Shown here: positions 7,716 through 48,865 of the stretch, piece after piece
Position numbering within the stretch: the first letter of the stretch is position 1
Layout: each line of letters begins with the position of its first letter
Origin: Thermophilibacter provencensis
GTDB taxonomy: Bacteria; Actinomycetota; Coriobacteriia; Coriobacteriales; Atopobiaceae
DNA length: 64,000 nucleotides
Assembly (NCBI RefSeq): GCF_900128445.1
Contig: NZ_LT671417.1
Span: forward strand, 939,547 to 1,003,546
Direction: 5' to 3'
The notes under the pieces: model-generated
Database searches by the model: none
What the model was told of the DNA's origin: nothing
Seen by the model: the letters and a program-made list of their open reading frames with translations, nothing else
Made by a program: the position numbers and the translations under genes

Positions 7716-7917
7716 GCTGCGTAAATCCGGGTCGTGGCAATTTCCCCGCCGCCGGCGTTGCGCGGATGGGGGTTATGGCAGCCCGCACTTCTCGCCGCCT
7801 GCGGTTCTTCTCGCCAGCGTTGTCCAAAGTAGGGTTGTGGCAGCGAGATTTCTGCCACAACCCCAATCTGGACAACGCCCCGCGGCGCCAGATTGCCATA
7901 ACCCCGATTCCCGCAAC
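7716..7917 (+). repeat. Family-A 202-bp repeat array, left flank of nuclease gene 1
   Basis: Five 25-bp sites begin at 7716, 7757, 7819 (direct) and 7852, 7893 (inverted). Each runs from GTTG (or GCTG) to a GGGGTTRTGGCAG-like core. Sites 3 and 4 form a nearly perfect palindrome with an 8-bp loop. The same element, in reverse, lies at 9250-9451, and a diverged copy with identical site spacing is at 61973-62174. It fills the gap between glnK and the nuclease gene. Confidence 0.9.
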
Positions 7918-7931
7918 GCGCCGAGTTGACC

Positions 7932-9050
7932 CTACCCAAGGCCGTATGCCTCGACGGGCACGACGTCCCATCCACCGTCGGAGGTCTTGGGTGCGGCGGC
8001 GGGGGAGTCCTTCTCTCCGTGCGCACGCTCGCGGGCGCGGCCGTCCCAGCGGACGCCGTCGATGTGCTCGAGCTCCTCGTAGAGCGCGGCCCGCCGCGCC
8101 CGCCGCCACTCTGTCACCTTGCGGGTCACGCGGTGTCGGGGCAGCCCGAGCTCTTGTCGGAGGATTTCTGCGAGCCCGTCCATGTAGTCGAGGTCACGAT
8201 ACTGAACCTTCGTTACCACGTGCTCCGAGAGTCCGATGGCCGTGAGCTCGGTGCTCCGCGCCGCGTCGCGCGCGTGCGCCTGCTCGGTCGCGTGGTCTCG
8301 GCCGTCGTACTCGACTGCGGCGATGCGCGGCGCGCCTCCCGCCTCGTCCGCGCGCCCGCGGAGCAGGATGTCGGGCTTTCTTACCCCCGATTCCATCCGG
8401 TCGTGTATGCGCCGCACCTCGAGGGGCTCGTTCATCGAAAGCACCTCGAGCCCGTATCCCCCAAGCGACGGCCTCAGGCCCAGGCGGAGTGAAAGCTTGG
8501 TCTCGCGGGGCGAGCCCGAGCGCACGCAGGCGTGACGCAGCGCGCGGCGCACCCGCTGGGTTCCGTGCTCCGGCCCGAGGGCTCCGAGGTGCTCGAGGAT
8601 GCGCTCGGGGGTGGTGAGGGGAGACTTCCGCTGGAACATGCCCTTCTCTGACGTGGGGTCGATGGCGTAGATGCCAAGGAACTCAGAGAGCAGGTAGATG
8701 AGCTCGAGGTCCGTGAGCCGTGGCGCCATCGCCACGGGGAGGTGCTCGGGCGAGATGCACCGCACTCCCGGGGCGAGCTCAAAGGCCGATCCGGACGGGA
8801 GGTCGGGGGAGGCGTGGGTGTGGACCAGCGACCTTCTCATGCGTGGCGCCTCGCGCGAGACGAGCAGGTGAAGGGGCTTGCTCGCGCGGGCCAGCTCTGG
8901 GATGGCGTCGATGAGCCGCTCGATTTCCGCGTTGTCCGGTACCCGCTCGGGAACGTTGCCGTCACAGCGTTCCCCCTTTTCGAGACGCCAGCGCAGTCGT
9001 CTGCTGCGCATCGCCTCAAGGGCCGTGGTATGTGTCAGTAGGATGCTCAT
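7932..9050 (-). CDS. DUF559/Vsr-like nuclease-fold protein 1, flanked by family-A arrays
   Basis: The protein has 372 residues. The C-terminal part looks like a DUF559/very-short-patch-repair type restriction fold: KPDILL (Asp about 227), then a strand VEYDGRDH (Glu247, Asp249, His253) and a downstream strand VVTKVQYRDLD. The N-terminal half contains PSGSAFELAPGVRCISP and SPRETKLSL, both matched in the protein encoded at 47859-48785, so the two are paralogues. Actinobacterial proteins of this layout often carry an AbiEi-like winged helix, which is not certain here. The gene lies exactly between inverted copies of a 202-bp repeat array. The function is unknown. Confidence 0.72.
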   Translation of the reverse strand: MSILLTHTTALEAMRSRRLRWRLEKGERCDGNVPERVPDNAEIERLIDAIPELARASKPLHLLVSREAPRMRRSLVHTHASPDLPSGSAFELAPGVRCISPEHLPVAMAPRLTDLELIYLLSEFLGIYAIDPTSEKGMFQRKSPLTTPERILEHLGALGPEHGTQRVRRALRHACVRSGSPRETKLSLRLGLRPSLGGYGLEVLSMNEPLEVRRIHDRMESGVRKPDILLRGRADEAGGAPRIAAVEYDGRDHATEQAHARDAARSTELTAIGLSEHVVTKVQYRDLDYMDGLAEILRQELGLPRHRVTRKVTEWRRARRAALYEELEHIDGVRWDGRARERAHGEKDSPAAAPKTSDGGWDVVPVEAYGLG

Positions 9051-9249
9051 GGCTCGAGGCTAGGGCATCGCATCTGGGATGGGCTCGAGATCCGAAGAAA
9101 GTTGTTCCCGCTTCTGACGGGATGCTGTCGCGATGCTGACGAGAAGGACTGTTTGTGCAGGTCAGTTAACTTGACATAAGTGATAAGCATGAAAAAGTGA
9201 ACTATATTTTATGGAGGGGATGTGCGGAGGGCGCTGGGGCGGGCGGGTC

Positions 9250-9451
9250 GTTTGCGATATCGGGGCTATGGCAATCTGACGCCGCGGGGCGTTGTCCAGA
9301 TTGGGGTTGTGGCAGAAAACGCGCTGCCATGACCCCGTTTTCCGCAACAGTGCCGAGAAGAACCGCAGGTGGCGAGAAGTGCGGGCTGCCATAACCCCCA
9401 TCCGCGCAACGTCAGCGGCGGGGAAACTGCCACGACCCGGATTTACGCAGC
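9250..9451 (-). repeat. Family-A 202-bp repeat array, right flank of nuclease gene 1
   Basis: Inverted copy of 7716-7917, almost identical along its whole length. Sites lie at 9250, 9291, 9324, 9386 and 9427, which are the mirror spacings 41, 33, 62 and 41 bp. Outside it, 9051-9249 holds a short AT-rich stretch (ACTATATTTTATGG near 9201) upstream of the nuclease gene. 9452-9523 holds a GC-rich tandem of CCAACCCGCAGCG-like units. Confidence 0.9.
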
Positions 9452-9523
9452 GGGTCCGGCCGGCGCGCCCAACCCGCAGCGGATCCAACCCGCGGCGCGC
9501 CCAACCCGCAGCGCGCCAAGCGC

Positions 9524-41061: not shown

Positions 41062-42030
41062 ATGCACACGGGCGACATCAGGACACGTAAGGCCGTCATC
41101 ATCGGCGCGGGGCGCGTGGGCAGTCATGTGGCGCTCTGCCTCATGTTCCAGCACCTTGTGAACGAGATCGTCTTTCTCGACGTCAACCGGGATGCCGCGC
41201 GCGCCCAGGCGCTCGACCTCGACGACCTGGCCTCCGGCCTCGGAGACTCGTTCACCATCCGCGTGGGCGAGTACGCGGACTGCCGTGACGCCCACTTCGT
41301 GATCCTCACCGCCGGCCGCAGCCGCCGTCCCGGCGAGACGCGCCTGCAGATGCTCGACGGCACCATCAAGGTGCTCGACGGCATCGTGGGCCCGCTGCGC
41401 GACTCCGGCTTCCATGGCATCCTGATCAGCGTCTCCAACCCGGCCGACATCGTGGTCGAGTACCTCTACCGCAACCTCGGCCTGCCGCGCAACCAGGTCT
41501 TTGGCACCGGCACCGCGCTCGACTCGGCACGCCTGCGCCGTGTGCTATCCGAGACCATCGACGTCTCGAACCGCCAGATCCAGGCCATCTGCATGGGCGA
41601 GCACGGCGACTCGATGTTCATCCCCACCTCGCGCATCTCCGTCGAGGGCATCGGCCTGCGCGAGTACCTCTCGCTGCGCGACGACGTGGTGGACTCCATC
41701 GACTTCGGCGACGTCATGCGCCGCGTGCGCGAGTCCGGCGCCGCGATCATCTCCGGCAAGGGCTGCACGGAGTTTGGCATCGCCTCGATCGTGGCCGACC
41801 TCGTGACCTCGATCCTGCACAACGAGAAGCGCGTGGTCCCGCTCTCCGCTCACCTCGACGGCGAGTACGGCGAGTCCGGAATCTCCGCCGGCGTCCCGTG
41901 CGTCATCGGAAGCACCGGCGTCGACTCCGTGCTGGAGATTGACCTCTCCTACGACGAGCGCCGCGCGATGCGCAAGTCCTGCGCGGTCATCCGCGACTAC
42001 TGCGAGAAGGTCATGCCGGCGCAGGAGTAG
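41062..42030 (+). CDS. L-lactate/malate dehydrogenase family 2-hydroxyacid dehydrogenase
   Basis: The protein has 322 residues. It shows the NAD site VIIGAGRVGSHVAL, Asp in FLDVN, the active-site loop LTAGRSRRPGETR, SNPADIVVEYL, GTALDSARLRRVLSE (Arg171-type) and the catalytic His in GEHGDSMFIP. The loop residue that sets specificity (Gln102 in lactate, Arg in malate dehydrogenase) appears to be Arg here, while the following GETR is LDH-like. It could be an LDH variant, a malate dehydrogenase or a branched 2-hydroxyacid (HicDH-like) enzyme. It is flanked by strong terminators, so it is a single-gene unit. Confidence 0.85.
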   Translation: MHTGDIRTRKAVIIGAGRVGSHVALCLMFQHLVNEIVFLDVNRDAARAQALDLDDLASGLGDSFTIRVGEYADCRDAHFVILTAGRSRRPGETRLQMLDGTIKVLDGIVGPLRDSGFHGILISVSNPADIVVEYLYRNLGLPRNQVFGTGTALDSARLRRVLSETIDVSNRQIQAICMGEHGDSMFIPTSRISVEGIGLREYLSLRDDVVDSIDFGDVMRRVRESGAAIISGKGCTEFGIASIVADLVTSILHNEKRVVPLSAHLDGEYGESGISAGVPCVIGSTGVDSVLEIDLSYDERRAMRKSCAVIRDYCEKVMPAQE

Positions 42031-47696: not shown

Positions 47697-47748
47697 CGCA
47701 TAACCCGACAAATTTGTCTCATTTTCATCAAAACTGTCGGGTTGTGCG
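47697..47748. repeat. Family-F palindrome, left flank of nuclease gene 2
   Basis: The site CGCATAACCCGACAAA (47697-47712) and its inverted partner (47733-47748) are offset by 36 bp. A partial third site, CGCATAACATATAG, begins at 47788. The rest of the 47583-47858 gap is AT-rich and includes TATAAT at 47810-47815, a likely -10 box for the nuclease gene. Confidence 0.85.
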
Positions 47749-47858
47749 GCGCACGCCCTTCTGCAAAAGAGTGCGTTTTGATGATGCCGCATAACATATA
47801 GTAATAGTTTATAATAACCCAATAGATATAGACGAATATATAAAGGACAAACTACACT

Positions 47859-48785
47859 ATGATAACCATTGTTAGTGAGAGCGCTCTTGAAATACTGTCG
47901 GACGATGCGATGCTGTCGAGGCTGGGAGATCCATGTCAGGCCTCGAACCTCGAGTGGTCTACCTTCTCCTGGTCGGATGTCAGGGAACTCGGTGGCCTCA
48001 TCGCGTTTGACCAGAGGCGCCCGATCCACGTGCTCGTGGGTAAGCCTGCTGACCGCGTTCACTCTGATCGAGTGGTGAGTCATGTATGGTCGGGACCCAT
48101 TCCGCCCGGCTCGCTCTATCACCTGGCTCCGGGGGTGCTCATTGCCTCTCCCGGCTTCTGCTATCTCATGGCGTCGGGATCACTGAGCAAGCCGAGGGCC
48201 ATCTCGATTGGGATGGAATGCGTGGGGCTCTATGGAAGGCGGCACGATGCCCGCGGCTTCAGCGATCGCAATCAGCTGATGACCAAGGCAGAGCTTGTTG
48301 ACTATCTCAAGGGTGCGAAAGGATGCTATGGATGTCGAAACGCGCTCAGGTTCTTGCCCTACGTGCTGGAGCGGTCGAGGTCTCCGATGGAGACTGCCAT
48401 GGTCCTCGTCCTAACGATTCCGAGCAGAGAGGGAGGGTTCGGGCTTCCTCGACCTGAGCTCAACATGACCATCAGGCCTCGTCCCAACGAGTTTTCCCTG
48501 AGCCAGCGCTCCCACTATGAGGTTGATGCCTGTTGGGAGAGACAGCGTCTCGTGCTTGAGTACAACAGCTATTCCGACCATCTGTCCAGGGAGGCCTTGG
48601 ACAGGGACGCCATGAAGGCCAACTCGCTTAGGAGCCTGGGCTGGAAGGTCCTAGTCGTCACGCGCGCGCAGTTAGAGGGCGACGCCCTGAGCGTACTGGC
48701 ATATCAGGTGGCGCGAGGGCTCGGGATAAAAAGGCGACATCCTAAGGCTGAGGAACGAGACAGGCTGCTCGAAGAGCTCCTCTAG
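47859..48785 (+). CDS. DUF559/Vsr-like nuclease-fold protein 2, flanked by family-F palindromes
   Basis: The protein has 308 residues and is a paralogue of the protein at 7932-9050. Shared blocks are PPGSLYHLAPGVLIASP (PSGSAFELAPGVRCISP there) and SPMETAMVLVL followed by GGFGL (SPRETKLSL, GGYGL). The C-terminal domain has the restriction-fold pattern: YEVDACW (Asp223), LVLEYNSYSDHLS (Glu234, then His), an Arg/Lys helix (DRDAMKANSLRSLGW) and KVLVVTR, as in DUF559/Vsr proteins. GC content is lower than in its neighbours. Palindromes with the same core and spacing sit on both sides. The function is unknown. Confidence 0.75.
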   Translation: MITIVSESALEILSDDAMLSRLGDPCQASNLEWSTFSWSDVRELGGLIAFDQRRPIHVLVGKPADRVHSDRVVSHVWSGPIPPGSLYHLAPGVLIASPGFCYLMASGSLSKPRAISIGMECVGLYGRRHDARGFSDRNQLMTKAELVDYLKGAKGCYGCRNALRFLPYVLERSRSPMETAMVLVLTIPSREGGFGLPRPELNMTIRPRPNEFSLSQRSHYEVDACWERQRLVLEYNSYSDHLSREALDRDAMKANSLRSLGWKVLVVTRAQLEGDALSVLAYQVARGLGIKRRHPKAEERDRLLEELL

Positions 48786-48797
48786 AATGATTCGGGT

Positions 48798-48849
48798 CGC
48801 ATAACCCGACAAAATGCACGTAAAGGCGCGGAAAGTGTCAGGGTATGCG
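48798..48849. repeat. Family-F palindrome, right flank of nuclease gene 2
   Basis: The identical site CGCATAACCCGACAAA (48798-48813) and an inverted partner (48834-48849) show the same 36-bp offset as the left copy. The 20-bp spacer sequence is quite different. Confidence 0.85.
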
Positions 48850-48865
48850 ACCCGGGGTTACTTCG

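Follow-up and report, generated by a model that had tools for sequence, protein, structure and literature searches.

The gene at 47859..48785 (+) in a stretch of 64,000 nucleotides (hereafter the window) from the gut bacterium Thermophilibacter provencensis encodes a predicted nuclease of 308 aa (P0001), and palindromes of one type are present on both sides of this gene as well as dispersed over the genome. Gene and palindromes probably represent a two-part, vertically inherited repeat system, in which a sequence-specific nuclease is paired with cognate palindromes that would be spread or rewritten by cut and repair. Most likely, the logic is that known from REPINs and RAYTs, carried out by an enzyme that is not homologous to RAYTs.

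The Palindromes at the Nuclease Locus

The upstream palindrome (47697..47748) displays the arms CGCATAACCCGACA and TGTCGGGTTGTGCG, which are 38 bp apart from start to start, and the genes on either side of it are divergent. The downstream palindrome (48793..48854) has the same arms around a different spacer; here, the genes on either side are convergent and meet with their ends. From the upstream palindrome to the start codon extends an AT-rich leader, the presumed promoter region (47749..47858, +). The sequence CGCATAACCCGACAAA is found at exactly 47697-47712 and 48798-48813 and at no third place in the window with up to one mismatch allowed, the expectation in the window being 0 in 100 dinucleotide shuffles. 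Both copies serve as left arms of inverted repeats, which are complementary to 85% (47697-47748) and 89% (48793-48854). A preliminary description of this DNA had given an arm offset of 36 bp and two differing spacers of 20 bp, which is correct when the arms are read as 16-nt half-sites. Likewise, the lower GC content it had noted was observed: the gene has 58.9% in comparison to 66.9% for the window, and the region 47750-47999 has 46%. A scan for the sigma-70 promoter consensus gave no match in the leader 47749-47858 or at the palindromes.

The palindromes had been considered unrelated to family A, the repeats of the paralogous nuclease gene at 7932..9050. This was overstated, since the palindromes of both loci contain CATAACCC, which has eight matches in the window vs. 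0.48 expected and is also present in the palindrome of the orthologue in the genome G025. Further CATAACCC octamers are located at positions 2609, 17376, and 62027 of the window, distant from both nuclease genes, and are possibly extra copies of the family A type.

The score obtained by comparing the upstream with the downstream flank is 32 for the 47859-48785 locus, which is within the range of 45 control genes of the window (maximum 33). As this score is unremarkable, the case rests on the two-sided inverted repeats, on the copies across the genome and on comparative data.

The Predicted Nuclease

According to its predicted structure, P0001 is an AbiEi-antitoxin-like domain joined to a Vsr/EDxHD-type PD-(D/E)XK nuclease domain with conserved catalytic residues. 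The AlphaFold model has a pLDDT of 88. Within this model, residues 173-291 (48375..48731, +) align to the homing endonuclease I-Bth0305I (3r3p, Z 10.0) and to Vsr (1cw0, Z 8.6) using VIA-align, and a profile search also selects I-Bth0305I for this domain (E 1.7e-4). In the alignment of P0001 orthologues and paralogues, E178, D223, E234, H241, and D250 are invariant; in the paralogues L040 and L043 the second catalytic acid is replaced by Asn.

The predicted AbiEi-like domain comprises residues 1-170 (47859..48368, +) and resembles the C-terminal domain of these antitoxins. Residues 1-172 modeled alone match the AbiEi antitoxin 6y8q with a Z of 8.2 (rmsd 3.4, 114 residues aligned) and Rv2827c (1zel) with a Z of 5.3. 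This match covers AbiEi residues 68-195, and the N-terminal winged helix lies outside the aligned part. The fold assignments come from VIA-align, for the nuclease domain in addition from the profile match to 3r3p, and the AbiEi-like assignment depends on a predicted model and middling Z values. Foldseek alone gave no significant match for either P0001 model.

In Pfam, the matches of P0001 to DUF559 and MTES_1575 are both weak and under the curated cut-off, no match was obtained in NCBIfam or PADLOC for P0001 or P0002, the product of the 7932..9050 gene, and PHROGs yielded weak matches at most. A relative from Collinsella carries the annotation "hypothetical protein." The neighboring genes encode a HAD hydrolase and a DUF1846 protein, and no AbiEii nucleotidyltransferase toxin is adjacent.

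Paralogues and the Wider Family

The gene 7932..9050 (-) encodes P0002 with 372 aa, which is homologous to P0001 as had been proposed (26% identity over 258 aa, E 9e-17). On its two sides lie family A repeat arrays (7755..7923 and 9244..9470), which match each other over ~220 nt in inverted orientation. The host genome (G000) harbors 13 family members, and in nine of these the upstream and downstream flanks share a private repeat. The upstream-versus-downstream scores of the nine are 302, 160, 141, 122, 66, 65, 43, 36, and 32, whereas mismatched pairs have a median of 23 and a maximum of 40; the 47859-48785 locus is the lowest of them. For the remaining four, no more than one side shows a palindrome. 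Among genes from other genera, 15 of 40 score at least 34, a value reached by 0.26% of the mismatched pairs and by 0 of the 45 control genes of the window. Paralogues without flanking palindromes, which according to the preliminary description would speak against co-evolution, were found in part, since a matched two-sided repeat was not detectable for four of 13 genes in the host and 25 of 40 in the wider sample. The palindromes of three paralogues (L040 flanks, L043 flank, L035 upstream region) have different arms and share a core in their loops resembling TTGGCAAAACGCCAACTGG.

The family is present in 51 of 119 genomes sampled of the class with 1-17 genes per genome, including gut Collinsella, and is spread over three families of Coriobacteriales and little beyond. 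Database records naming relatives of the locus come from Olsenella, Thermophilibacter mediterraneus and uncultured Atopobiaceae.

Dispersed Palindromes in the Host Genome

Genome-wide counts were obtained by pattern searches. Using a 14-nt arm with up to two mismatches, 35 matches were found in the genome vs. four for the reversed control. Viewed with their surroundings, they form ~13 two-armed copies, in which the arms start 38-39 bp apart around divergent spacers. The palindrome described as private to the gene is thus not confined to the locus, and this changes which mechanism has to be considered. The palindromes of the paralogues L040 and L043 are likewise dispersed, in lower numbers.

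The two arms co-vary: 94% of the cells are paired, and seven cells with a double change were counted in comparison to 2.4 in shuffles (0 of 500 as high). Conservation is only moderately higher in the arms (~93%) than in the flanks (84%). Most copies are located at the 3' end of a gene or where two genes converge, and some lie between divergent genes, with gene calls there being rough; the copies do not share a single transcribed strand. Since their spacers are mostly unshared, no recent conversion is visible in most copies.

The Same Locus in Other Species

In 30 congeneric genomes, the gap between the HAD hydrolase and DUF1846 genes contains the orthologous nuclease gene in 16 and lacks it in 12; in a further genome the locus is rearranged, and in the last a contig end interrupts it. 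All occupied sites are flanked by palindromes on both sides, whose sequence varies between species and agrees between left and right within a species. The mean left-right score is 64.8 for own and 21.1 for foreign pairs, and 0 of 20000 permutations were as high. The upstream element of G001 was added by hand; without it, the values are 62.0 and 20.8, again with 0 of 20000.

Palindrome similarity follows protein identity with a Mantel rho of 0.40 (1 of 5000), in comparison to 0.16 for a flanking gene and 0.38 for the partial correlation. Palindrome types are common to the protein clades G000/G014, G011/G016/G009, G013/G015/G003, G001/G017, and G006/G021. The proposed co-evolution is therefore borne out among relatives: left equals right within species, types are shared by clades, and the palindrome tracks the protein more than the neighboring gene. 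As the species are related, the permutation figures overstate independence, and several genomes are drafts or metagenome-assembled. In G006 (L126, G006:C1:1008000-1012130), the nuclease gene is present in the same gap in reversed orientation, with palindromes still on both sides.

Dispersed Copies Across Species

Arms of the G000 type have 17 matches in G000, 17 in G014, eight in G012 and 12 in G029, and 0-1 elsewhere. Those of the G011 type have 13 in G016, nine in G011 and seven in G009 (0-4 in others), and those of the G021 type 13 in G021 and three in G016 (0-2 in others). High copy number is thus confined to genomes with the matching nuclease type, G029 excepted. This genome keeps CGCATAACCCGACA repeats at orthologous sites (L226, L227, L228, L229, L233), while no nuclease of this type was detectable and the nuclease locus contains neither gene nor palindromes, an apparent loss of the enzyme. 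Draft contigs of G014 and G012 stop a few hundred bases or less from palindromes (L216, L217, L234), which suggests that draft genomes may under-count copies.

Within the G000 clade, the copies are at orthologous positions. At the positions orthologous to the G000 copies L002, L006, L012, L013, and L029, other species have copies as well, which are different in sequence. The site L006 was traced through the genus by flank homology alone, so that copies were not chosen by their own sequence. Here, seven of nine genomes (G000, G001, G006, G011, G016, G017, and G021) carry the palindrome of their own nuclease, a total that 12 of 362880 permutations attained. Another type is present in G014. G018 has the palindrome of G011 within a stretch identical between the two, which makes recombination or mis-binning likely. 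In G022 and G005, the site was found by its flanks and contains no palindrome. The arms at L006 are too divergent across species for pair counts.

The dispersed L006 element of G017 is the reverse complement of the element flanking the nuclease gene, spacer included, and copying between sites is needed for this. Most of the other sites show the pattern of L006. However, elements of the G021 type are present in G016 (at L002) and G017 (at L013), and one of the G009 type at one site in G008. The match of dispersed palindromes to the own nuclease type is therefore frequent, not complete, and off-type sites would have to be explained by recombination between species, mis-binning or a second nuclease. 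At the site L019, the G000 clade has the G000-type palindrome; in G011 and G021 another repeat, GGGTATGTACACC, is found, which resembles that of the paralogue L032 (L260-L268). This is one intergenic spot serving different repeat families.

Alternative Explanations

The predicted AbiEi-like domain would also fit an autoregulator. In this case, the palindromes would be operators, the dispersed copies a regulon drifting together by selection for binding, and nuclease activity absent or incidental. AbiEi proteins recognize inverted repeats of 23 bp that occur in pairs, and by binding them the family represses its own promoter (PMC7319586). By analogy, this geometry appears close to that of the palindromes described here, which is a lead and not a test. 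One palindrome is located ~110 bp upstream of the start codon, the dispersed copies keep their positions, and their drift in place would be explained. On the contrary, the catalytic residues are present in most paralogues besides being invariant in the orthologues, and most copies are found, like the downstream flank, where genes end or converge. Furthermore, the spacer-inclusive inverted copying in G017 and G018 requires a transfer of DNA and not independent selection. An autoregulator is an unlikely explanation, with a small share of the probability left to it.

A transposon, in which the gene and its palindromic ends would be a mobile element and the dispersed copies internally deleted derivatives, appears quite improbable. 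In line with it would be the repeat shared by both ends, which several paralogues show in nearly identical form over 60-220 nt and sometimes in inverted orientation, as well as the empty sites in 12 species. However, each specificity type has only one copy, which occupies the same gap in every species examined, and the closest paralogue of P0001 is 38% identical. The gene is under strong purifying selection (dN/dS 0.08-0.28), and a simple selfish transposon ranks low because of this and of the single copy per type. The empty sites show neither clean insertion junctions nor target duplications. No relative of the nuclease was found in viral contigs or phage collections. The plasmid collection contained one distant match, a Collinsella record of 0.9 Mb, and gave only chance matches for a Collinsella palindrome.

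Could the palindromes be ordinary REPs that owe their mobility to a RAYT (HUH tyrosine transposase) encoded at some other locus, with the nuclease gene between two of them by accident? The anatomy of the repeats is REPIN-like (PMC8049555), and Y1-transposase genes of RAYT size are present in 13 of 14 genomes tested, four of them in G000. P0001 itself has no match to Y1_Tnp (HUH/Y1 tyrosine transposase) in Pfam. Nevertheless, 0 of 11 Y1 loci examined have an arm of the species' nuclease type within ~1.5 kb, the best having 3-5 mismatches of 13-16. It is the nuclease that the palindrome tracks, and a different repeat, of the GGGGAC type, lies on both sides of the Y1 gene in G011 and G016. A RAYT is thus an unlikely partner of these palindromes, and an accidental position of the nuclease gene is very improbable indeed. 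A different palindromic repeat of the TTCTGCAAATTGGGGACAGTCCCCAATTTGCAGAA type (L019:2163-2235; G000 C3 near 41856-41928) has many copies per genome and is nearly constant across the genus. Since GGGGAC-type repeats bracket Y1 (RAYT-like) genes in G011 and G016, it looks like an ordinary REP-RAYT family beside the nuclease families.

A role as intrinsic terminators or RNA hairpins that selection on transcription maintains at the ends of genes, with the nuclease as a bystander or an RNase on hairpins, would fit hairpin-forming repeats that often lie between convergent genes and co-vary in their arms, and a Vsr-like fold occurs also in mitoribosome-associated proteins, but terminator-consensus and Rfam scans gave no match at the palindromes, the upstream flank lies between divergent genes and species-specific sequences matching the flanks of one gene are not predicted, which leaves this explanation with hardly any probability.

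A Model for Nuclease and Palindromes

In the two-part repeat system preferred here, two palindrome copies bracket the nuclease gene, and about ten more are scattered in intergenic DNA. The nuclease would recognize the inverted arms, which either of its two domains may read, and would cut at or near the palindrome. The binding of repeat pairs by AbiEi proteins (PMC7319586) would be in line with such recognition. Repair from another copy would then rewrite the resident palindrome by gene conversion or occasionally seed a new copy. Because the unit is palindromic, this conversion would be blind to orientation. The copies in a genome would in this way follow the current specificity of the nuclease, and upon drift of this specificity the set would be replaced, often at the same chromosomal positions. 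Of this account, the cognate pairing is well shown, as are the dispersal, the agreement between left and right flanks, the switch of type in place and one inverted copy with its spacer, whereas binding, cleavage and repair are inferred. A more far-reaching version, which is given slightly less than an even chance and is put forward more tentatively, is that the nuclease rewrites its own recognition sites genome-wide. Each shift in specificity would convert the dispersed palindromes in place, so that a whole extragenic family may be periodically replaced without moving, and about a dozen separate pairs of this kind may exist in one bacterium.

The closest known systems are the REPIN/REP-RAYT systems (REPtrons) of Pseudomonas, Stenotrophomonas and E. 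coli, which also have two inverted arms with a diverse spacer (PMC8049555, PMC3686654). In both, an enzyme gene is bracketed by its own repeat, the copies are dispersed and intergenic, one enzyme belongs to each repeat type, and inheritance is vertical. How abundant a repeat is depends on its cognate enzyme; orphan repeats are left when the enzyme is lost, as apparently here in G029, and the repeat class shifts ("orthoswitch"). In contrast, the enzyme here combines a PD-(D/E)XK (Vsr/EDxHD) domain with an AbiEi-like domain, whereas RAYT is an HUH tyrosine transposase. The copies number about a dozen and not hundreds, and at orthologous sites one type gives way to another without a change of position; in the published model, by contrast, new variants spread and old copies decay. 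Due to the unrelated enzyme, the lower copy number and the in-place switching, this is not a member of the REPIN-RAYT systems, though it works like one.

Other systems share single features. In TIRtrons (TIRYT), repeats also flank a transposase gene, which encodes a tyrosine transposase (PMC3733652). The CGTC-tagged REPs are likewise a REP family without a known transposase, but flank no identified transposase gene (PMC3733652). EDxHD homing endonucleases (I-Bth0305I) and the Vsr mismatch endonuclease share the fold and the catalytic pattern of the nuclease domain, and the cut-and-repair copying proposed here would resemble homing; unlike in homing endonucleases, the gene is outside of an intron or intein and is bracketed by full palindromic sites, which are also dispersed. 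Occupied and empty alleles both exist in the genus, and at the empty sites no palindrome target is seen. With the type IV toxin-antitoxin proteins AbiEi from S. agalactiae and Rv2827c from M. tuberculosis, P0001 would share the predicted fold of residues 1-170, but here a toxin neighbor is missing, the winged-helix domain is unmatched and a nuclease domain is fused.

In the literature covered, which includes few subscription journals, no report linking such nucleases to palindromic repeats was found. Taken together, this points to an undescribed partnership of enzyme and repeat, which works like REP/RAYT and is built differently.

REPINs have been described as the sole known case of a sequence population within genomes that prokaryotes stably maintain (PMC8049555). 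If the system proposed here is true, it would be a second, enzymatically unrelated one with the logic of REPINs, and cognate partnerships of enzyme and repeat would have arisen in bacteria more than once. The in-place switching would provide a tractable setting for concerted evolution, and the many naturally diverged pairs of nuclease and palindrome would offer ready material for a study of how long DNA sites are read by such a nuclease.
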